The translations under genes and the position numbers were made by a program. Below are positions 2-40,658 of a stretch of 50,682 nucleotides of DNA, piece after piece. The notes under the pieces are model-generated. The model worked only from the letters and a program-made list of their open reading frames with translations. It ran no database searches and was not told where the DNA came from. The stretch is from Candidatus Gastranaerophilales bacterium (lineage in GTDB: Bacteria; Cyanobacteriota; Vampirovibrionia; Gastranaerophilales; Gastranaerophilaceae): assembly GCA_905236055.1 (NCBI GenBank), contig CAJOOA010000042.1:1-50682 (forward strand), written 5' to 3'. The stretch's first letter is position 1, and each line of letters begins with the position of its first letter.

Positions 2-694
2 ACTCTTGAAGACCACTACTCACTAATTTCTTCTCACTTACAACGTGTTAGAGATTTGACTGAGCAAGCTGCTAACGGTACTTATGGCGCTGACTCTCTT
101 GCCGCAATTAAATCAGAAATTACTGCAAGACTTGATGAAATCGACCGTATTGCAGCTAACTGTGAATTTAACGGCATAAAGATGATGATAGGAGGAACAA
201 CTGCTCAAGGTGGTGAAGATGGCGGTATTAAAACCGATATAAATCTTCAGGTTGGTCTATACAGCGGAAGCGACAGTAAAATAACTCTTAGTGCATCCTT
301 GTTTAGAACTGCAAAAGTAGGACAATTGTTCAAGCATTACAGCAAGGGGGATAATGGCGCAACTACCGATGACACTCTTGATACAAAAGATGAAATTGCA
401 ACGGCTTGTACAGGTTCGTCAGCAGCAGATATGTTAAACAAAATCGACTATGTAATAAAGGAAATTTCAAACAGAACAACAACTCTTGGTGCTGCTCAAA
501 ACAGAATTGATTCTGCTATTGAATCTATCGCTGTTCAATCCGAAAACATCACATCTTCACTTTCTACTTTAAGAGATGCAGATATTTCGAAAGAATCTTC
601 AAACTATATTCAAGCACAGATTCTTCAGCAAGCTGCAGCAACATTGCTCGCAACAGCAAACCAAACACCAAGTATTGCTCTAAACTTGCTGTAA
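2..694 (+). CDS. Flagellin, 3' portion (5' end outside the window)
   Basis: This is the structural subunit of the flagellar filament, exported through the flagellar type III apparatus. The frame is open from base 2, so the N-terminal part lies upstream. The visible 230 residues begin in the conserved helical region (HLQRVRDLTEQAANGTYG, then EITARLDEIDRIAANCEFNG). A short variable, surface-exposed central part follows. The C-terminal helix is canonical: LGAAQNRIDSAIESI, then DADISKESSNYIQAQILQQA, ending in NLL. That terminal pattern is diagnostic of bacterial flagellins and is needed for export and polymerisation. The gene ends about 40 bases before a strong terminator. No other flagellar gene is in the window. 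Function is certain at family level; whether the organism has several flagellins cannot be judged here. Confidence 0.95.
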   Translation, partial: TLEDHYSLISSHLQRVRDLTEQAANGTYGADSLAAIKSEITARLDEIDRIAANCEFNGIKMMIGGTTAQGGEDGGIKTDINLQVGLYSGSDSKITLSASLFRTAKVGQLFKHYSKGDNGATTDDTLDTKDEIATACTGSSAADMLNKIDYVIKEISNRTTTLGAAQNRIDSAIESIAVQSENITSSLSTLRDADISKESSNYIQAQILQQAAATLLATANQTPSIALNLL

Positions 695-2537: not shown

Positions 2538-2734
2538 CATTAAAAAAATTGCCTTTTTTGATGTAATTTTACGAATAAAATTTTATTAATAGCAGCTAAA
2601 TTCAATAATAGCTTAAAATTTTTCACTTTACAAAACTTAATAATAATCCCATTTTTACATTTCTTAATATGTTAGGCAATTATAAATATAAAAATAACTT
2701 AATAAATATAAATAAGTATCTAAAGGAGTTAATT

Positions 2735-5443
2735 ATGACGGAAATTAGCAGGGATTATGCGTTGCACGAAAATAGTGCGGCTTTTGGGAAAAAACGTGGA
2801 GGCAGTGTCCCGCAGGCGTATTATTATGTGCAGAACATGCAGTCACAAAGAACACTCAGAGATGAGTTTGTTCATCAACATAAGAAAAATGGCTTATTTG
2901 AACGCTTATATAACGGTATTAAAAATATCACCGGTTTAGGCATGGGCTCAAAAAAAGTAAAAAATATTGTTAGTGATGCCGAAAATGGTAATATATCTGA
3001 AGAAGAAGCAAGAGAAGCAATATCAAAATACAGAAAATCACAAGCAGATTCTGCGCAAATACTGGGAGATACGGCATCCATTGCAGCTTCTGCCGCAACA
3101 TTCTTTGGATTAAGGAAATTATTAAAAACCGAAGTTGCTGCAGCATTATTAAATGAGAATTATTATAAAAAATTAGGTACAAATAGTAGCGAAAAAGTTT
3201 CTAAGTACTTAAAAAAAGTTTTAGATATCGCAAAATCAAATAAAAAAATGACATTAGTCCTCGCCGGAGCGGCAGGATTCGCCGGGATGTTTGCAAAAGT
3301 TTGGACCGGAAAAATTAACCGGCTGGGTTCCAATGAATTTAAAACCGACAAGAAAGCATTCAACAATTTGGCTACAGAGGAAGACAAAGCCGCTTATAAA
3401 TATCAGAAGAAGTTAAACAAAAAGGCAAGAAAGCGTGCTAATCGGAAGAACAGATTATCAGGGTTTATAAATGGTTTAATGATGCCGGTAACTTTGCTCG
3501 GAGGAGCTATCGTAGGCATTCCTGCATATCTTGTCGGTAACACTCTAAACAGGTATTTTATAGGTAATTCTGAAGATAAAAACAAGTCAATAAAAGGTTA
3601 TGCAGAAAATATTAAAAATAACGCAGTTTTAAATAGTGCTTTAGCAATCGGAATGGCAATACCTTTGTTCAAAAAAGGTAAATTCGCAAACGTTTTTGAT
3701 AAGAACCTTAAAAAATCTTTTGACTCTTTGAAAAATGCTACGCTCAAAGATTCCGGATTTGAAGGTAAAACTGTATATCAGGAATTAAGTGACATACTTC
3801 TGAACTCAGAAAAGGTATCCGGTGTTGTTAATGAAAGCAGAGACAAATACTGGAGTGCAATAAATAAAAAAGCCCATATATTAGAAAAAGAAAAAGGCAT
3901 AAGTTTTGCAGAAGCTTTCGGGCAAGCAATGGCAGAAGGAACTAAAACTTTGGATGACACCATAAAAAAACTCACTGAAGAAAATATTTTCGCAGTTAAG
4001 ATGAAACAAATTTCAAACGATTATTCAGAATTAACAAGAGCATTAAAGGAAAATTGTCCGAGAACATATACGATTGAAGAAGCATCAGATATTGTTAATA
4101 AAACATTTGGAAACAAGTACAAACTGACGAAATCACTCGGCGCAGGTACAGTTGCTGAAACATATCTTGCCGAAACCGGAAATGGCAAAGACGTTTGTAT
4201 AAAACTTTTGAAAAAAGGCATCACCAAAGAAAAAATACTTGCAGATGAAAAGAAGTTTATTGATTTAATTAATGCTCTGCCCGAAAAATCTAAAGAAGAA
4301 AAAGATATGTTAATAAAGAATATCAAAAACTTATCCGAAGGGATACAAAAGGAAGTTAATTTTGAGCATGAAATGGAAGCTGCAAATAAATTGAGAAAAC
4401 ATACAAAAATTGCAAAAGTTGTCGAAGGAATTGAAGTTAAGGACAATATATATGTAATGGAAAAAGCCGAAGGAATAAGTTTGGAATCTTTTGCAAAAAT
4501 TAATGCTTTAAATCACAATATAAAATCATTAAAACAGTATGCCGCAGAAGGAAAAGAATGGGCTATTACAGAGTTGAAAAAGTCGGAAGCAGAACTTGAA
4601 AGATTAAAAGCTAAAACGCCCAATTGGAAGGAAATATCTGAATTATCCCCAAAAGAAGCAAGTACAATTCTTGATGAATATTACAGAATTAAAATTGAGC
4701 AGTTCAATAAGATAGGCAAGGACGGCAAGACAATTCACGCTGACACTCACTCCGGTAATATTTTCTTTGACCTGAAATCTTTTAAAGAAGGTAAAAAACA
4801 ATATTTCACGTTAATCGACACAGGAAATACTATTGATATGACAAAAGAGCAGGCCTTAAGAGCACTGAGATTAACAGATATAGTCGAAAAAGGCAGTACA
4901 GCTGATATCGCGGAATATGTTCTTGAAGGCGCAGAGCTTGGTGCAAGCGGACTTACTAAGGAAGAGGCCGTAAAGAAAATTTCTGCAGAGCTTAATAAAG
5001 CATTCTTTGATTATGAAACGAAACTAGGACCTATGACAAATGATACTATTATAGATTTCTGCTCAAATATTATGCGTAAATACAAAATTATACCGAACGA
5101 CAATCAATTGAATTTTAACAAAGCAAAACAATCAGCACAAAATTCATTTACAGAACTGCTTAATACTTTATTAACAAAAAAACTTGGTAATATTGATAAG
5201 AATACAAACAAAGCTGAAGCAATCGCCAAAGGGACAGAGACTGTTACTCATCTGTTAAGCAAAATGGCTAAATACAAGCAATGGGAAAAAATCCAAGAGC
5301 GCGCGAATTTGGCATTATTGTCGCCCCTTGAAAGGAAAAATTTTAAATATAATCCCAATTTGCTTAAACCTAACGATGAAAAATATTTAACGTACAAATT
5401 AAAACAAAAAATGAAATTTGTTACAGAAAACCCCGATATATAA
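2735..5443 (+). CDS. Large protein with membrane segments and an ABC1/UbiB-like atypical kinase domain
   Basis: A 902-residue protein. The first ~330 residues are basic and contain hydrophobic stretches near residues 171-190, 244-270 and 294-312. The C-terminal half resembles the ABC1/ADCK/UbiB kinase family: a nucleotide-loop-like SLGAGTVAETYLAE (467 on), lysine 490 in VCIKLLKKG, an acidic helix VNFEHEMEAANKL, the catalytic-loop-like HADTHSGN (668-675) and DTGN (695 on) in place of DFG. These line up in order with the family's Lys, HADxHxGN and DFG elements. UbiB proteins normally support isoprenoid-quinone synthesis, but the family's N-terminal KxGQ signature is not seen and the N-terminal domain is unlike UbiB. 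Start ATG 2735 has AAGGAG upstream. It is a single gene with no obvious partner. The kinase-fold assignment is fairly firm; activity and substrate are unknown. Confidence 0.7.
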   Translation: MTEISRDYALHENSAAFGKKRGGSVPQAYYYVQNMQSQRTLRDEFVHQHKKNGLFERLYNGIKNITGLGMGSKKVKNIVSDAENGNISEEEAREAISKYRKSQADSAQILGDTASIAASAATFFGLRKLLKTEVAAALLNENYYKKLGTNSSEKVSKYLKKVLDIAKSNKKMTLVLAGAAGFAGMFAKVWTGKINRLGSNEFKTDKKAFNNLATEEDKAAYKYQKKLNKKARKRANRKNRLSGFINGLMMPVTLLGGAIVGIPAYLVGNTLNRYFIGNSEDKNKSIKGYAENIKNNAVLNSALAIGMAIPLFKKGKFANVFDKNLKKSFDSLKNATLKDSGFEGKTVYQELSDILLNSEKVSGVVNESRDKYWSAINKKAHILEKEKGISFAEAFGQAMAEGTKTLDDTIKKLTEENIFAVKMKQISNDYSELTRALKENCPRTYTIEEASDIVNKTFGNKYKLTKSLGAGTVAETYLAETGNGKDVCIKLLKKGITKEKILADEKKFIDLINALPEKSKEEKDMLIKNIKNLSEGIQKEVNFEHEMEAANKLRKHTKIAKVVEGIEVKDNIYVMEKAEGISLESFAKINALNHNIKSLKQYAAEGKEWAITELKKSEAELERLKAKTPNWKEISELSPKEASTILDEYYRIKIEQFNKIGKDGKTIHADTHSGNIFFDLKSFKEGKKQYFTLIDTGNTIDMTKEQALRALRLTDIVEKGSTADIAEYVLEGAELGASGLTKEEAVKKISAELNKAFFDYETKLGPMTNDTIIDFCSNIMRKYKIIPNDNQLNFNKAKQSAQNSFTELLNTLLTKKLGNIDKNTNKAEAIAKGTETVTHLLSKMAKYKQWEKIQERANLALLSPLERKNFKYNPNLLKPNDEKYLTYKLKQKMKFVTENPDI

Positions 5444-11807: not shown

Positions 11808-14141
11808 CTATAATTCAACCGTCATAAAGCTGTTTTTATAATCGTTAATCGTATTCATCAATTCCACATACTCTTCATATTTTGTACTTATTGTCAGATT
11901 AGACATATCTTTATTGTTGTTAAGCGCTATGCAATAAAAGTTTTCTTCCCTTGCATTAATTGAAATTATGCCCGCATCAGCAAAGAGTTCCAATAATAAT
12001 TCAATTACTTCTTCCGTCACACCTAACGCTGCAGCACCTCTCGCCAGAACGAATCTGCCTTCCTGATTATTAACGCAAAACTTCAGCATACCCGTGAAAT
12101 TCTTTATTATTCCGCTAACATCCGGCTTATAACTCGTATAATTCATATAATGCAAAGATTTAGCACAAACTGTTTGCATAACTTTTTCATATAAATCTTC
12201 CGAACACGGATAATCAAAGAACATTAAAACATCATTTTTGGAAATTGTATTTCGATTAACCACACACTTTTTGATACTTTCGTACGGTTTAAGCATTTCA
12301 ACAATATTTTTGTCCTCTGCAAATACCGAAATCCCAAGTTTTGAAGTTTTTATGTAATCATTTACTTGCTGCAATATATTTGTTTTTTTTCTGTGATCAT
12401 ATACTTTTATTTGTGATTTTTTTTCTTCCTTCAGGTGCTCTGAATGAATATCCTTAATTACAAGTTGTATATTCGTAGCTCCGTTGTAAGTGTTTAGTTG
12501 CGGTGCAAAAGCCATGTCCAGCTTATCTCCGGAAATTAACGGAACATCTCCCTTCCCCCACCAAACGCAATCCAGAGGACCTTTTTGAGTATCAACAATG
12601 AGTTTTAAGTGTTCTCTTGTGGAACCCATTAATTTCTTCTGTTTTAGAGTTAAATCTTTAACCACAAAAGTAGGTGACGGATTTGATGCTCCAAACGGTT
12701 CTAATTGTGAAATCTGTTCAACCAACGTTGTATCGATATCATCAATCGATAACTCCAAGTCAATATCAAGAGAAGGTGAAAGTGTTTGACCGCCTAACAT
12801 CTCATCAATTGTCTGATTAAGAGCGTTTTTAACATTCTCAAAAGATGCTTTGTCTTCGCTAAAACTAAATCCGGCTGCGAGTTTGTGTCCGCCAAAGCCA
12901 TCAAAATATTCCGAAATATTTGTCAAAATTTCATATAGGTTTAATTCCTTAACTCCTCTCGCCGAGCATCTGAAAAGCTTGGTTTCGGGGGAATAATTCA
13001 TTATAAATGCGGGCTTATAATATTTTTCAACAAATTTTGATGCCACAATACCAACAATTCCAACATGCCAATCCTGATTATAGAGGACTATCGCATTGTC
13101 TCTCATACCTGTTGATTGCCACATTTCATCAGCTTGCGCAAAAGTTTGTGAAACTAATTCCTGACGAACTTTATTAAAATTTTCCAAATTGATTATTGCC
13201 AATTCGATTTCCTGCTTATTTTCGGAAATCATAAGTTTTACTGCCGCCTCAACCGTATCTAATCTGCCGGAAGCATTGATTCTTGGTGCAATCGTAAAAG
13301 CTATCTGGTCGGAAGTCAAACCATTCTCACAATTTACTCCGGCAGCATCCAGCATTCGTTTTAAGCCATAGTGTTTTCCCTGTGCTATCAGTTCAATACC
13401 TTTTGTTACAAGGTATCTGTTTTCTCCTATTAAAGGCACTATATCAGCTATAGTTCCTACCGCAACAAAAGGAAGAAGTTCGTAGCTGAAAATTAGTTCA
13501 TTGTAGTGCTCTAACACTCCTTGTGCAAGTTTAAAAGCAACTCCGACTCCTGCAAGATAGGTTAAATATTCTATTTGCAGAGAGGTAAGCTTTTCGTCAA
13601 GTGAATTCATAGCTTTCGGATTTATTATCGCATAAGCGGGCGGCTGTTCTTCCGGTGCTTCGTGGTGATCCGTAATAATAACATCCCGACCAAAACTGTT
13701 TATAAACTTAACTTCCTCAACACTGCTTATTCCGTTATCTACAGTAATAATCAACTTTGGTTTTTTTTGTGCCATCAATTTCACAAGCGCTTTTGAATTA
13801 AGTCCGTGGCCTTCTGTATCTCTATCGGGGATATAATAATCAACAACGCCGCCCAAATGGGTGAATGTTTTCATTAGCACGGCCGTTGAAGTAACTCCGT
13901 CTGCATCAAAGTCCCCGTATATTAAAATATTTTCCTTGCCATCAATTGCCTTAACAATTCTATCAACCGCTTTAGACATATCACAAAAAGCGTTCGGATG
14001 AGTCAGAGTAATTTCAAGAGGATGCAAAAACTCCCGCTTTGCATCCTCGCTTTTAATTCCCCTTATTTCCAAAAGCCGATCTAATACAGATTTTTTACTG
14101 TCACTGTCGCCCTTAATTATCCATTCTGTTGTACAAGACAT
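11808..14141 (-). CDS. recJ: Single-stranded-DNA-specific 5'-3' exonuclease RecJ
   Basis: RecJ degrades single-stranded DNA from the 5' end in recombination, mismatch repair and base excision repair. The 777-residue protein carries the DHH-family motifs DFDADGVTST, VDNGISS and TDHHEAPEE (the DHH motif proper). The DHHA1 domain has GFGGHKLAAGFSF, and an OB-type region follows. A C-terminal extension of about 200 residues makes it longer than the E. coli enzyme; long RecJ forms are common in cyanobacteria and Firmicutes. The ATG overlaps the end of the ctp gene by 25 bases, so the two are coupled. Confidence 0.95.
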   Translation of the reverse strand: MSCTTEWIIKGDSDSKKSVLDRLLEIRGIKSEDAKREFLHPLEITLTHPNAFCDMSKAVDRIVKAIDGKENILIYGDFDADGVTSTAVLMKTFTHLGGVVDYYIPDRDTEGHGLNSKALVKLMAQKKPKLIITVDNGISSVEEVKFINSFGRDVIITDHHEAPEEQPPAYAIINPKAMNSLDEKLTSLQIEYLTYLAGVGVAFKLAQGVLEHYNELIFSYELLPFVAVGTIADIVPLIGENRYLVTKGIELIAQGKHYGLKRMLDAAGVNCENGLTSDQIAFTIAPRINASGRLDTVEAAVKLMISENKQEIELAIINLENFNKVRQELVSQTFAQADEMWQSTGMRDNAIVLYNQDWHVGIVGIVASKFVEKYYKPAFIMNYSPETKLFRCSARGVKELNLYEILTNISEYFDGFGGHKLAAGFSFSEDKASFENVKNALNQTIDEMLGGQTLSPSLDIDLELSIDDIDTTLVEQISQLEPFGASNPSPTFVVKDLTLKQKKLMGSTREHLKLIVDTQKGPLDCVWWGKGDVPLISGDKLDMAFAPQLNTYNGATNIQLVIKDIHSEHLKEEKKSQIKVYDHRKKTNILQQVNDYIKTSKLGISVFAEDKNIVEMLKPYESIKKCVVNRNTISKNDVLMFFDYPCSEDLYEKVMQTVCAKSLHYMNYTSYKPDVSGIIKNFTGMLKFCVNNQEGRFVLARGAAALGVTEEVIELLLELFADAGIISINAREENFYCIALNNNKDMSNLTISTKYEEYVELMNTINDYKNSFMTVEL

Positions 14142-15322
14142 GTCATCTCTTTCAATACTTCAATAGCTTTTTTCAACTGAACGTCATCTTTTGCATCGAC
14201 ATTCTCTTTAGTCAATTCTACCACAACATCAGGAGTAATTCCTTTTTTATGAATATCAGCTCCGGAAGGAGTGAGATATCTTTGAATTGTAATATTCATA
14301 CCTGATTCATCAGGAAGCTTGTTAATTTCCTGAACCAATCCCTTACCAAAAGACTGCTCCCCGACAATTGTTGCACGATGATTATCTTTCAAGGCACCGC
14401 TTAGGATTTCGCTTGCAGATGCAGAACCTTTATTTATCAAAACAACCACCGGCTTTTGTGTAACCTGTGTGTATCTGGCTCTGGTAGTGCTTTTGTACCT
14501 ATCACGGTCAACAGTACTTACAATTACACCTCCCCTTAAAAGCATGTCCGAAATATAGATTGCGTTTGTTAAAAGTCCGCCGGGATTTGAACGCAAGTCA
14601 ATTATTATTCCTTTTTTATCAGCAGATGAATTTAAAATCGTTTCAATTTCAGATGCTGCATTTTTGCTTATAAACGAGCTTAACCTTATGTATTGAATAT
14701 CATCGGGAATAACAGTAGTATCAAAAGGCGGCTTGCAAGAAACCGATTTGACCTCTATTTCATCCCTTACAATGCTATACACCCTGTTTGGAACCCCTTT
14801 CCTTTGGATTAAAAGTTTTACGGTAGTTCCTTTTTCACCCCTGATTTTATCAGCCGCAGCATCAATATTTATCCCTTTTGTACTTTCACCATTGATTTCA
14901 AGAATCTGATCGTCTGCAAGAAGCCCCGCACGCTCTGCCGGAGAATCTTCAAGCGGAGCAATTATAACCAAATTTCCGTCACGAAGACCGATTTGAGTTC
15001 CTATACCTTTTAAAGAACCTTTTATTGACTGAGTTTCTTCAGAGAATTCCTTCGGCTGTAAAAATCTTGTATATGGGTCATTCAAACTGGCAAGCATCGT
15101 ATCTATTGCAACATAAGCATCTTCTTGTGTCTTTAGTTTATGGTCGTACCTATATCGCCATTTAGCCCAGTCTTGTTGATTGTTGGAAGGATCGTAGTAT
15201 TTTTTGTTAACAACTTTCCATACATCATCATATAATTCTGCAGGAGTTGCTGCAAAAACGGTATTAAACGACAAATATATAATTGCACTAACCGCCAACC
15301 CCATCTTTATAAATCTTTTCAT
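14117..15322 (-). CDS. C-terminal processing peptidase (S41 family), exported
   Basis: A 401-residue periplasmic serine protease of the CtpA/Prc type. It has an N-terminal signal sequence (hydrophobic core about residues 8-22, cleavage near VFAATPA). A PDZ domain of roughly 100-180 (DGNLVIIAPLEDSPAERAGL, DQILEINGEST) follows. The S41 catalytic core contains the serine in NKGSASASEILSGAL and the lysine in GEQSFGKGLVQEI, the Ser-Lys dyad of this family. These enzymes trim or degrade envelope proteins with exposed C-termini; in cyanobacteria a paralogue matures photosystem protein D1, which is not relevant here. The start has AGGAGAGG upstream. It is the first gene of the ctp-recJ-membrane protein unit. 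Confidence 0.94.
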   Translation of the reverse strand: MKRFIKMGLAVSAIIYLSFNTVFAATPAELYDDVWKVVNKKYYDPSNNQQDWAKWRYRYDHKLKTQEDAYVAIDTMLASLNDPYTRFLQPKEFSEETQSIKGSLKGIGTQIGLRDGNLVIIAPLEDSPAERAGLLADDQILEINGESTKGINIDAAADKIRGEKGTTVKLLIQRKGVPNRVYSIVRDEIEVKSVSCKPPFDTTVIPDDIQYIRLSSFISKNAASEIETILNSSADKKGIIIDLRSNPGGLLTNAIYISDMLLRGGVIVSTVDRDRYKSTTRARYTQVTQKPVVVLINKGSASASEILSGALKDNHRATIVGEQSFGKGLVQEINKLPDESGMNITIQRYLTPSGADIHKKGITPDVVVELTKENVDAKDDVQLKKAIEVLKEMTCLVQQNG

Positions 15323-15473: not shown

Positions 15474-16766
15474 ATGAACGTAACACCTCTTAAACATTCT
15501 GCATACGCCAATTTAAACACCATCGCAAAAAGTGCTGGTGCAAGGAATTATCTTTATATGCAATCTCCGCTAAAATGTATCGCCGGCAATACTTGTGCAT
15601 GCTGCGGACAAAAAATGCTCACACGCGTTGATATTTCAAAAATATGGTCAACAATTACTCTTCCGCTAAAAGAAGTTCTTCCTAACTACAGATGGGAGAA
15701 AGTAAAGAATAACCATCCTGATTTATTTAATACTATAACTTATTTAGCAAATAAATTTCCCAAAAAAGCTCTAAGCGACATAATATTGGAAAAGCCGGAA
15801 CATGTACTTTTTATGGATGCAATCGCCAATTCGGTTGATAGATATAGATGCACTCGGAATTTATCACCGCATGAATATCGTGAATACATAAAAAGTCTTA
15901 CGATGGGAGTATTAAATACTTCTGCCTGCATTTTAAAAGATGCTAAAGATGTTATTCCGGTATTAAAGCCCTATGAAAGCTATATGCGGGGTCACAGGAA
16001 AGAGATATTTAACGAACTGGAATATCAATCTTCAAAATATCCGGATAAAAAAATTTTTGACATAATAAGAATGCCCGAACTTTCCGAAAAATATATTGAA
16101 AACACTTATTATGAAGCAGTTAATTTTGCAAAAAAACGTGATTATCATTGGGAAAGAGCTGATAAGATAATTTTGAGGAACAAACCGGAACTTAAAGATG
16201 AAATTAAAAAATTGCGAACGCGAGTCGCTCAGGCATACGGAAGCGATGACGAAAAAAGGGTTGCTTATCAGATACAAGAATTATACAGAATATTTCTCAA
16301 AGAGCATAATCTTAACCATTTAGAAAAAAACGTTCTTGGAGAAATTTGCCAAATTCCGCTCCTAACATTTACCAAAAATTCATTTTTGTCATATCCAAGG
16401 AGATATTATTCAGACGGACTAATTGTTCAATACATAATAAGACCGTTCATGGAAACGGTGAAAAGTATTGTACCTCCAAAAAAAGGAGGATACGAACTCA
16501 GCAACAAAATACTTGTATGCAGAGAATGCGGAGATAATTTGGCGCAAATACCATATACCGAAACTGCACTTTATCATCCTGAGATGATAAAAAATACAGA
16601 AAAACAATTACAGTTCATTGGGAATAAAATTTTAGACGGAACCCTACCCTCAGAACTTTTTGATTACCCAATAGCAGTTTCAAAAACATTATACAACTAT
16701 TCCGGCGGCTTAATAAATCCGGATTTGTCCAATTATATTGAAAATATAAAAAACATTAAACTTTAG
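15474..16766 (+). CDS. Unknown protein with split four-cysteine zinc site (paralogue 1)
   Basis: A 430-residue, mostly helical, soluble protein that I cannot name. CxxC pairs lie at Cys41/Cys44 (NTCACCGQKM) and Cys349/Cys352 (LVCRECGDNL), about 300 residues apart. The sequence around the second pair (IVPPKKGG, then a few residues, then NKILVCRECGDNL) has the spacing of an HNH/treble-clef zinc finger: GG, a conserved N, then CxxC. The catalytic histidine position is not His. The 300-residue insert contains charged helices, with EFAKKRD-like and YSDG stretches shared with the next gene. The N-terminus is polar and lineage-like. No Shine-Dalgarno is evident, but the start aligns with that of the paralogue. 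The next gene begins 15 bases downstream. Confidence 0.8.
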   Translation: MNVTPLKHSAYANLNTIAKSAGARNYLYMQSPLKCIAGNTCACCGQKMLTRVDISKIWSTITLPLKEVLPNYRWEKVKNNHPDLFNTITYLANKFPKKALSDIILEKPEHVLFMDAIANSVDRYRCTRNLSPHEYREYIKSLTMGVLNTSACILKDAKDVIPVLKPYESYMRGHRKEIFNELEYQSSKYPDKKIFDIIRMPELSEKYIENTYYEAVNFAKKRDYHWERADKIILRNKPELKDEIKKLRTRVAQAYGSDDEKRVAYQIQELYRIFLKEHNLNHLEKNVLGEICQIPLLTFTKNSFLSYPRRYYSDGLIVQYIIRPFMETVKSIVPPKKGGYELSNKILVCRECGDNLAQIPYTETALYHPEMIKNTEKQLQFIGNKILDGTLPSELFDYPIAVSKTLYNYSGGLINPDLSNYIENIKNIKL

Positions 16767-16781
16767 CCGAGAAGGATTTTT

Positions 16782-18092
16782 ATGAATATTAAGTCAATCA
16801 GCAATTCAAACTACTCCAAAACAACAATATCACACCAAGCCCATATGCATAAAATGGCTTTTTACTCCCCATCTCCTATCAAAAATATTCGGGGAAATCG
16901 TTGCGCATGCTGTGGCGAAGAAATGATTCCTTACCCTGTTACTGCTAATTTGTGGGCAAAAATTACTCTTCCGATATCACAAGTTGTTAAAGGTCTGCGA
17001 TTAGAACGCCTAAAAGAAGAGCATCCTAACGTATACAAGGTTTTAAATTATTTTGCTTATATGTATCCAAACCAATCACTCGACAGCATTCTGCTTGATG
17101 GAAGTAATCACAATATGTTTGTTGATTCCATTACACATACTGTGTTAGAAGCTAATGACAGTGAGTTCCCGAGTTCTGTTGCTTTCAGGAAAGCTATAAA
17201 AAGGGAAACTATGAATATTTTTAATATTTTTGAAAGCAATTTAAAAAATTCTTCAGAAGTTATTAAAGAACTGAAACCGCTGGAAAAATTTATGCACAAT
17301 GAAAAAAGAGAAATATTTGAAGAACTTGAATCTTTGTCAGCAATTTATCCCGACAAAAAATTATCCGAATTGGTACAGCTGCCGGAAGTAGTGGAAAAAC
17401 ATATACGGGGTTGCTATGATGATGCCATTGAATTTGCAAAGAAACGTGATTTTCATTGGCAAAAGGCAGATGAAATCATTCTAAAAGAAAACTCGAATTT
17501 GCAAGATGCCCTTAAAAAACTTCACTCTGAGGTTAACGCCATATACAATGATGATGATCCTCAAAGATGCGCATACTTTATCAAAAAATTGTACAAAGGT
17601 TTCTTGGAGAAAAATAATCTTGAACATATAGAAAAACCTGTTCTTGAAGAAATTAGTCAATTGCCGGTCAGAGGTAATACAAAAAATCTAGTCATGGCAA
17701 AAATAAGAAATAATTATTCAGACGGCGCAATAGTAAGATTTTTAACAAGACCTGCTATGGAAAGCGAAAAAAGGATTATTCACGTAGATGATGGCGGCAG
17801 CAATAATTTAACAAACAAAGTTGTAATGTGCCGTGATTGCAGTGATGATCTTAATAAACTGCCTTTTGAAGAATTCTGTGCGTATCGCCCCGAAATCATA
17901 GAGAATACAAAAAAACAGATAAAATTAGTAGAAGATAGAATTATCGACGGTTCAATTGATTTTTCCTTCAGGCACTATCCTATTGAAGTTGCCAAAGTTC
18001 TTGACGAATATACAAACGGAATTGTCAAGCCGGATTTAGCAGAGTATATTGCAAAAATAAAAGAAATGGAAAATTGCGAAGGGCTTCCGTAA
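16782..18092 (+). CDS. Unknown protein with split four-cysteine zinc site (paralogue 2)
   Basis: A 436-residue paralogue of the preceding product, collinear along its whole length. The cysteine pairs are in the same places (Cys41/Cys44 in NRCACCGEEM; Cys350/Cys353 in VMCRDCSDDL). Shared blocks include IYPDKKLSEL/KYPDKKIFDI, FAKKRDFHW/FAKKRDYHW and NNYSDGAIVRFLTRPAMES. The zinc half-site is preceded by HVDDGGSNNLTNKV, again HNH-like in spacing but without the DH catalytic pair. AGAAGGA precedes the ATG. The pair is a tandem duplication that has diverged substantially, so both copies have probably been kept by selection. Function is unknown. Confidence 0.82.
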   Translation: MNIKSISNSNYSKTTISHQAHMHKMAFYSPSPIKNIRGNRCACCGEEMIPYPVTANLWAKITLPISQVVKGLRLERLKEEHPNVYKVLNYFAYMYPNQSLDSILLDGSNHNMFVDSITHTVLEANDSEFPSSVAFRKAIKRETMNIFNIFESNLKNSSEVIKELKPLEKFMHNEKREIFEELESLSAIYPDKKLSELVQLPEVVEKHIRGCYDDAIEFAKKRDFHWQKADEIILKENSNLQDALKKLHSEVNAIYNDDDPQRCAYFIKKLYKGFLEKNNLEHIEKPVLEEISQLPVRGNTKNLVMAKIRNNYSDGAIVRFLTRPAMESEKRIIHVDDGGSNNLTNKVVMCRDCSDDLNKLPFEEFCAYRPEIIENTKKQIKLVEDRIIDGSIDFSFRHYPIEVAKVLDEYTNGIVKPDLAEYIAKIKEMENCEGLP

Positions 18093-18097
18093 AAAAG

Positions 18098-18937
18098 CTA
18101 ATTCATTATCATTAACAACTCACGAATCACTTTTGTTGCGACAGCAGTAGAAGCGCCTGATGCATCATAATCAGGTGCAAGTTCAACAACATCTGCTCCT
18201 ATAATATTAAAGTTCTTCAGATGTTTAAACCAGCCCAAAAGCTCATTGAAAGTAAAACCGCCGGTTTCCGGAGTTCCTGTACCTGGCATTATTGCAGTAT
18301 CTAAAACATCCAAGTCTACCGTAACAAATACGTTTTTATCTTTTAATGAATCTAAATCGGTATAAGCTTTGGCAAGAGTATTATACTTTTTCATCAACTC
18401 AAATTCTTCTTTCATACCGGAGCGGATCCCTATCTGTCTGATGTTTTCGAATCCGACAATCTCGCCACAATGATGCATCACTGCAGAGTGAGAAAGTTTT
18501 TCACCAAGATATTCTTCACGCAAATCCGTATGCGCATCAAAATGAATTATCGCAAGATTTTTGTAATATTTAGAAACAGCTTTTATTTCAGGCAAAGTTA
18601 CAAGATGCTCACCGCCTATTCCGAGTACCTTTTTCCTGTCTTTGTATATTTCATCGACATTTTTTTCTATCAAATCCAATGACTTTACTGTATTACCCAG
18701 AGGAAATTCCAAATCTCCGACATCATTAAAATTGCAATCCTGCAAGTGTTTATCAAAATAAGGAGAATATTCCTCCAAGCCCCAACTCGCTAATCTTATC
18801 TGCTCAGGAGCAAAGCGAGAGCCGGAGCGATAAGAAACGGTTCCGTCAAAAGGCATTCCGAGCATTACTATATCAGACGTGTTGTAGCTTTTATTTTCAC
18901 CCATCCAATTTCTGTCTAAAAAAGGACCTGTTAACAT
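18098..18937 (-). CDS. speB: Agmatinase (arginase/agmatinase/ureohydrolase family)
   Basis: A 279-residue enzyme predicted to hydrolyse agmatine to putrescine and urea. The dinuclear manganese site is intact: GIGGEHLVTLPE, HFDAHTDLREEY and TVDLDVLDTAIMPGTGTPE. The N-terminal FDGTVSYRSGSRFAPEQIR pattern is typical of agmatinase-like proteins rather than true arginases. AAGGAG lies six to seven bases before the ATG. It ends five bases from the convergent zinc-site paralogue. Related ureohydrolases (guanidinobutyrase, formiminoglutamase) cannot be excluded by sequence alone, and no speA or speE is nearby. Confidence 0.88.
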   Translation of the reverse strand: MLTGPFLDRNWMGENKSYNTSDIVMLGMPFDGTVSYRSGSRFAPEQIRLASWGLEEYSPYFDKHLQDCNFNDVGDLEFPLGNTVKSLDLIEKNVDEIYKDRKKVLGIGGEHLVTLPEIKAVSKYYKNLAIIHFDAHTDLREEYLGEKLSHSAVMHHCGEIVGFENIRQIGIRSGMKEEFELMKKYNTLAKAYTDLDSLKDKNVFVTVDLDVLDTAIMPGTGTPETGGFTFNELLGWFKHLKNFNIIGADVVELAPDYDASGASTAVATKVIRELLMIMN

Positions 18938-40157: not shown

Positions 40158-40658
40158 ATGTTAAACGTAAACGGAACAACAAATGTAAACGCTGTACAAC
40201 AAACAAATACAGCACAAGCACAAAATTTGCCATTTAGAGGCAGAACAGATTATGAAAGAGCACCGGAATATGATACATACGAATCCGGTAAAAAACACTC
40301 AGGTTTAAAAACCGTAGGATGGTTAACAGGTTTGACCGCAGTAGGACTCGCTATCGCAAGTTTTGTTAAAGGTAAGCAAAAATTACCGGAAAATAGCAAG
40401 TTGGGCGACATAATGAAAGAAGGTTGGAAAGAAGTAAAAACCGGATTAAAAAATTTGTGGTCTAAGGTTGGTGGAAAGAACAAAGTTACAAAGAGTAACT
40501 CCAATGAAGTACTTACTAAGAAAATAAATGAAGCCAACAATAAAGAAGCTTTGGAAAAACTTGGTGAACGTGTTAAAAAATATGGTTCAGAAGAAACCAA
40601 AAAGGCATACGAAGAAGCATTAAAGAAATTTGAAGAAGCAGCAGAAAACGCAGCTTAG
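40158..40658 (+). CDS. Small membrane protein with polar N-terminus, lineage type
   Basis: A 166-residue unknown protein. The first 25 residues are Asn/Thr/Gln-rich (MLNVNGTTNVNAVQQTNTAQ), ending in LPFRGRTDYE. One membrane helix lies at about 51-70 (KTVGWLTGLTAVGLAIASFV), followed by a strongly charged helical tail rich in Lys and Glu. No cleavable signal peptide. AAAGGA lies upstream at long spacing. It stands alone with its own terminator. Layout parallels the 25.1-kb protein. The 199-base gap before it has a small GAACAT/ATGTTC inverted repeat and no gene I can support. Confidence 0.75.
   Translation: MLNVNGTTNVNAVQQTNTAQAQNLPFRGRTDYERAPEYDTYESGKKHSGLKTVGWLTGLTAVGLAIASFVKGKQKLPENSKLGDIMKEGWKEVKTGLKNLWSKVGGKNKVTKSNSNEVLTKKINEANNKEALEKLGERVKKYGSEETKKAYEEALKKFEEAAENAA

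Follow-up and report, generated by a model that had tools for sequence, protein, structure and literature searches.

A split-HNH protein family in Gastranaerophilales and a tandem pair of its members devoid of the catalytic residues

The gene pair and its neighborhood

The window analyzed here, the whole stretch of 50,682 nucleotides, corresponds to contig C42 in a draft genome of 1.76 Mb, and MAGs of Candidatus Gastranaerophilales, along with related gut MAGs, are its closest named relatives. Between two conserved neighbors, a divergently transcribed ctpA-like gene and a convergently transcribed speB-like gene, it contains two genes on the same strand, separated by a 15 bp gap, whose products, P0001 and P0002, share 39-40% identity. 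The features of the locus are the following.

14117..15322, minus strand: ctpA-like protease (PDZ/S41-type by sequence), conserved divergent neighbor, adjoining recJ
15474..16766, plus strand: P0001, 430 aa, catalytically degenerate split-HNH protein
15594..15608, plus strand: first zinc knuckle of P0001, CACCG (residues 41-45); C41 and C44 are invariant in the 19-member alignment
15654..16430, plus strand: helical insert of P0001 between the knuckle and the beta-beta-alpha core, approximately residues 61-319 (approximate borders), from the secondary structure of the model; missing from the Pfam HNH profile
16461..16466, plus strand: K330-S331 of P0001, at the position of the catalytic E/D-H, from the sequence and alignment
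16503..16532, plus strand: second zinc knuckle of P0001, N344...C349-x-x-C352-G353, with Gly at the position of the metal-ligand Asn (AnaCas9 N606)
16782..18092, plus strand: P0002, 436 aa, tandem paralog of P0001
16902..16916, plus strand: first zinc knuckle of P0002, CACCG (residues 41-45), from the sequence
17769..17774, plus strand: K330-R331 of P0002, at the position of the catalytic E/D-H, from the sequence and relatives
17814..17843, plus strand: second zinc knuckle of P0002, N345...C350-x-x-C353-S354, with Ser at the position of the metal-ligand Asn
18098..18937, minus strand: speB/agmatinase-like gene, conserved convergent neighbor

An initial reading of the sequence alone had noticed in both proteins a CxxC at residues 41/44 and a second one some 300 residues downstream, preceded by GG and N-K, along with the absence of the catalytic histidine and its acidic partner, and all these observations are borne out: the second CxxC is at 349/352 in P0001 and at 350/353 in P0002, the GG and N-K precede it in both, and the catalytic pair is replaced by K330-S331 and K330-R331, respectively. 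The CACCG signature of each protein holds three cysteines (41, 43 and 44), of which 41 and 44 make up the CxxC, and C43, the extra third cysteine of CACC, is present in many family members. In an alignment of 19 members that extends down to 16% identity, C41, C44, C352, G339 and N344 are invariant and C349 is nearly so, and because of this conservation, the cysteine layout is more than a chance coincidence.

A discontinuous HNH motif

Most of the relatives of these proteins contain the core motif E/D-H-[IV]-x-[PA]...N...CxxCN..R, and several of them (L036, with an E-value of 6e-9, L031, L045, L046 and L030) pass the cut-off of the Pfam HNH profile (PF01844). The suggested profile search thus identified the domain in the relatives but not in the window pair, for which the matches fall below the Pfam HNH cut-off, P0001 yielding only HNH_5 at an E-value of 0.25. 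The matches of the relatives cover profile positions 14/15-46 of 47; with such a start, the contiguous match does not include the first knuckle, which, in the relatives with a full HNH motif, is located 200-300 residues upstream of the core. Among solved structures, those of AceCas9, GmeHNH, AnaCas9, McrA and IscB are the closest in sequence; the alignment with AnaCas9 matches the CxxC of the family to C602/C605 and the residue that follows to N606. The catalytic metal of AnaCas9 is coordinated by D581 and N606, and zinc sites of the [CxxC]2 type are a regular feature of HNH enzymes (PMC5304195). With K-S...G and K-R...S at the catalytic positions, the window pair is HNH-derived rather than a pair of HNH nucleases.

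When the two halves were joined in sequence, the match to PDB sequences still ended at the HNH core and did not reach the first knuckle; the match became no longer because the linker in the joined sequence is longer than that in ordinary HNH domains. Contiguous [CxxC]2 HNH controls from the same genomes, of which a regular expression retrieved three, were too few to score. The split is seen, instead, in the structure, the Pfam offset and the co-inheritance of the cysteines, and the joined-sequence score contributes nothing to it.

Several candidate kinships were rejected. The helical part yields Pfam matches to DUF6388, OHA and Ogg-HhH that are below the cut-off and differ between the paralogs. 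In the L045 copy, matches to PHROG 2214 also extend over some of the insert; in Gastranaerophilales genomes, however, the matches of that PHROG center on the HNH stretch, so we interpret them as similarity of the HNH core rather than kinship through the insert. The HNH stretch also matches IscB (NCBIfam NF040563), with E-values of 1e-7 to 1e-4 in relatives and 4e-4 in P0002; membership in the IscB or Cas9 families was rejected, given that the IscB scores are 20-31 bits against a cut-off of 175 and the Cas9d scores 18-26 against 375, in both cases for the HNH stretch only.

Predicted structures and co-inheritance of the cysteine pairs

The AlphaFold models of P0001 (pLDDT 85.9, pTM 0.81) and of a compact relative, L045:7209-8240 (pLDDT 82.6, pTM 0.77), are confident except for the N-terminal tails. 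The order of elements in the P0001 model is the knuckle, the insert, strands 326-331 and 345-349, and helix 350-358. The core of a treble clef consists of a knuckle, a loop, a hairpin and a helix, in this order (PMC4999995), and the model follows the two-knuckle version of this order, with the first knuckle before the hairpin and the second one at the start of the helix, so that the insertion in this family sits in the treble-clef loop between the first knuckle and the hairpin. The best superposition of P0001 is with AnaCas9 (Z 7.8, rmsd 3.2, 109 aligned residues, model 24..411 against chain 547..665), whereas the L045 copy covers 100 of the 106 chain residues of the GeoCas9 HNH domain (model 48..334) and aligns with AceCas9 over 112 residues; on the DALI scale, the Z values of 6-8 in these superpositions are moderate. 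The HNH domain of AnaCas9 holds a Cys4 zinc site. Since the alignments begin before the first knuckle and fill nearly the whole contiguous domain, the two halves are predicted to come together. Foldseek on its own produced no significant match, and the insert fold found no convincing match of its own, only middling Z values to unrelated helical bundles.

The fate of the cysteines in the family conforms to this picture. Among the 63 relatives in which both sites are readable, 53 keep both pairs (49 with four cysteines and four with His in place of the third one) and ten lack both, typically with CPYxG and SxxA/SxxG at the respective sites. No relative in this sample has a single pair; homologs lacking one pair had been named in advance as evidence against a common site. 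The association is nominally strong (Fisher p 8e-12 if the rows were independent, which they are not); the ten zinc-less relatives (L014, L016, L017, L019, L020, L021, L023, L024, L025 and L026) form a single clade with 100/100 support and accordingly represent one coupled loss, not ten. The E/D-H and the Asn are kept in this clade, and its knuckle remnant, CPYTG, resembles that of zinc-less Cas9 HNH domains. The expectation that the cysteines would be invariant across homologs therefore fails for the family as a whole, given that this clade lost both pairs together. The central proposition, an HNH/treble-clef finger split by a long helical insert, is supported by the Pfam offset, the superposition with Cas9 HNH domains and the retention or loss of the cysteine pairs together in 63 of 63 relatives. 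The models and the sequence conservation jointly provide a strong case for a single HNH domain in which a predicted Zn(Cys4) site links the parts on either side of the insert.

Alternatively, the two CxxC motifs could form separate sites, for example, an N-terminal metal-binding or redox motif and an HNH remnant, as might be suspected from the distance of 300 residues between the pairs and from the third cysteine, C43, within the CACC motif of many members. However, in the models, the region preceding the first knuckle superposes with the beginning of Cas9 HNH domains, the only clade that lost either pair lost both, and CxxCGx[KM] is the standard first knuckle of HNH domains, that is, precisely the part that the Pfam match lacks. 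We consider independent motifs very unlikely.

The HNH domain of this family resembles those of type II-C Cas9 (AnaCas9, 4OGE; AceCas9, 8D2K) in the beta-beta-alpha order E/D-H...N...CxxCN. Unlike Cas9, the family contains neither RuvC nor other Cas9 parts and has 200-300 residues between the first knuckle and the core, and the window copies, unlike the Cas9 HNH domain, lack the D/E, the H and the metal-ligand N. In GVE2 HNHE and GmeHNH (4H9D), a Cys4 zinc site is formed by two CxxC within the HNH fold (PMC5304195), but the cysteine pairs are at an ordinary spacing, 35 residues in GVE2 HNHE, compared to about 305 in the window proteins. The assertion that the layout belongs to no described family thus stands for the architecture but not for the domain, which is a Cas9/IscB-like HNH. 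The treble-clef/HNH fold evidently tolerates an inserted domain of 200-300 residues that separates the first zinc knuckle from the catalytic core; this architecture is real and somewhat surprising within the HNH superfamily.

Loss of the catalytic residues in the window pair

The catalytic E-H-N is replaced by K-S-G in P0001 (K330-S331, G353) and by K-R-S in P0002 (K330-R331, S354), whereas the zinc ligands are kept. This loss is not a trait of the family: E-H or D-H is present in 49 of the 53 members with both zinc knuckles, and on the tree, catalytic residues were lost with the zinc site kept three times, in the window pair, in L010 and in L015, the last of which is a long branch. P0001 and P0002 are sisters (support 99/87), joined next (100/99) by L048 from G058, a single-copy ortholog at the same site with an intact EEHIIP...CRSCNMDR. 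Both copies have K instead of E and lack the terminal R, suggesting that degeneration probably preceded the duplication. Because the family includes a clade that lost the zinc ligands but retains E-H, as well as members that retain these ligands but lost E-H, it constitutes a natural test of the purpose of the zinc site. The structural hunch of the sequence-only reading was, then, largely right; what it missed is that the family is common in the order, with most members catalytically complete, and that the window pair forms a branch that is both duplicated and catalytically dead.

We consider it probable that the window pair represents a Gastranaerophilales split-HNH family, in which the two copies, each with one Zn(Cys4) site, would be non-cleaving, nucleic-acid-binding or regulatory pseudonucleases. 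Under this scenario, a helical domain of 200-300 residues would be inserted into the loop that leads from the first zinc knuckle to the catalytic hairpin and helix, and a single Zn(Cys4) site, as the models and the co-inheritance of the cysteine pairs indicate, would join both ends of the chain. The ancestral protein most likely nicked or cut DNA using E/D-H-N and a divalent metal, with the helical insert probably providing substrate binding or gating. In the window lineage, the gene at the ctpA-speB site would have been duplicated and the three catalytic residues lost, probably before the duplication, with the zinc site and the fold kept, so that the two proteins most likely bind nucleic acids or regulate without cleaving.

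Another possibility is that the pair are decaying duplicates of a nuclease that is no longer needed, in which degradation began with the catalytic residues and is now spreading to the rest. Such decay is compatible with the disappearance of all three catalytic residues, with the existence of degenerate copies elsewhere in the family, such as the decayed relative in the window genome with three in-frame stops (G000:C9:9827-10780), and with the absence of the gene from the same site in three relatives. However, both window genes are full-length open frames that retain all four cysteines, GG and N344 at 39% identity, and catalysis was apparently lost before the duplication, so that it is the inactive form itself that was duplicated and kept. 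Furthermore, the divergence between P0001 and P0002 is 0.47, 0.31 and 0.54 at the three codon positions, the second being much more conserved than the third; together with the intact frames, this weakly suggests continuing constraint at the protein level, the signal being weak because third positions are near saturation. On balance, decay appears unlikely.

Distribution and rapid divergence of the family

A search with a profile built from the 19 members detected the family in 307 of 383 Gastranaerophilales genomes, representing 41 of 52 genera. Of 292 genomes sampled across the phylum, 128 were positive, all of them from Gastranaerophilales, and the sampled class-mates and other cyanobacteria gave no member at E <= 1e-12; within the sample searched, the family is apparently limited to this order. 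Relatives emerged only in the alignment-based search, a single-sequence search of the genome contigs with P0001 having returned no match. What is new here is a family that is widespread in Gastranaerophilales, with representatives in about 80% of the sampled genomes of an uncultured gut order in which the functions of most genes are unknown. Tandem copies are common, with two or three consecutive ones in L044, L045 and L046, and the window genome also contains a more distant copy with a full frame (G000:C23:10490-11317). In addition, in ORFs of 660-1020 aa in this order, the PHROG 2214 HNH match begins with the E-H strand and leaves out the first knuckle (G106:C1:330602-330820, G109:C2:206902-207108, G124:C18:10897-11085 and similar); these are, possibly, larger split-HNH families.

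In many congeners, the family gene is flanked by ctpA, itself next to recJ, on one side and by speB on the other; in L052, L057 and L069, also congeners, it is absent, and ctpA and speB are direct neighbors, about 80 bp apart. The genes found at this site all fall into a single clade within the genus, consistent with vertical inheritance accompanied by losses. The presence or absence of the gene at this junction, the abundance of HNH domains in homing endonucleases and the tandem copies elsewhere could hint at homing-type HNH endonucleases or mobile remnants. Such a selfish origin is, in our view, highly improbable: the genes are intergenic rather than located inside a gene or intron, those at the ctpA-speB site comprise a single clade, as under vertical descent with losses, and phage and viral collections gave matches to the HNH core only, nothing beyond it, with a viral fold search returning no match below E 0.1. 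A homing endonuclease proper was rejected, the genes being intergenic and of one clade at one site.

At these loci, identity to the window genes is 81-88% for speB (only a fragment in L036), 86-92% for ctpA and 72-77% for recJ, compared with only 23-44% for the family gene. Biologically, such fast divergence at a fixed site is what is most unusual about the family, and it makes the family a candidate for involvement in biological conflict in these gut bacteria. Conceivably, the family consists of effector or defense nucleases, perhaps exported via an N-terminal F-x-A/G motif, with the dead copies acting as inhibitors or decoys. Along with the contrast between 23-44% identity and the 72-92% of recJ, ctpA and speB, the multi-copy, tandem organization, the short N-terminal motif common to many members and a weak PtuB-like HNH match in one relative (E 2e-5; the window copies do not match) speak for such a role. 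However, no immunity, ATPase or secretion gene adjoins these genes, and no defense family was matched at a meaningful score; Septu (PtuAB), in particular, was rejected, the neighbors being recJ, ctpA and speB, with no PtuA-type ATPase. We regard a role in conflict as possible but doubtful. A more elaborate version, in which Gastranaerophilales would carry a large, hitherto undescribed class of domain-inserted HNH nucleases acting in fast-evolving conflict, the insert controlling the closure of the zinc site and the activity, and dead tandem copies inhibiting active ones or serving as decoys, seems quite unlikely.

A short N-terminal motif, approximately [PSTN]xF[KGQR][AGS], is common to many split-HNH members and to unrelated proteins of these genomes; it occurs in 22 of 155 ORFs at residues 4-60 compared to two of 155 at residues 64-120. 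Carriers include the window ORF at 40158-40658, L031:1284-1775, L032:1796-2248, L038:9927-11315 and L039:2963-3601, and the window protein at 2669-5443 has a looser version, AAFGKK. The motif is a candidate sorting or export signal. Upstream of recJ in several relatives, tandem proteins of 130-166 aa that start with FxGLWG (L031:1284-2250, L032:1282-2248, L033:657-2136 and L034:1750-2244) apparently comprise another fast-evolving, multi-copy family.
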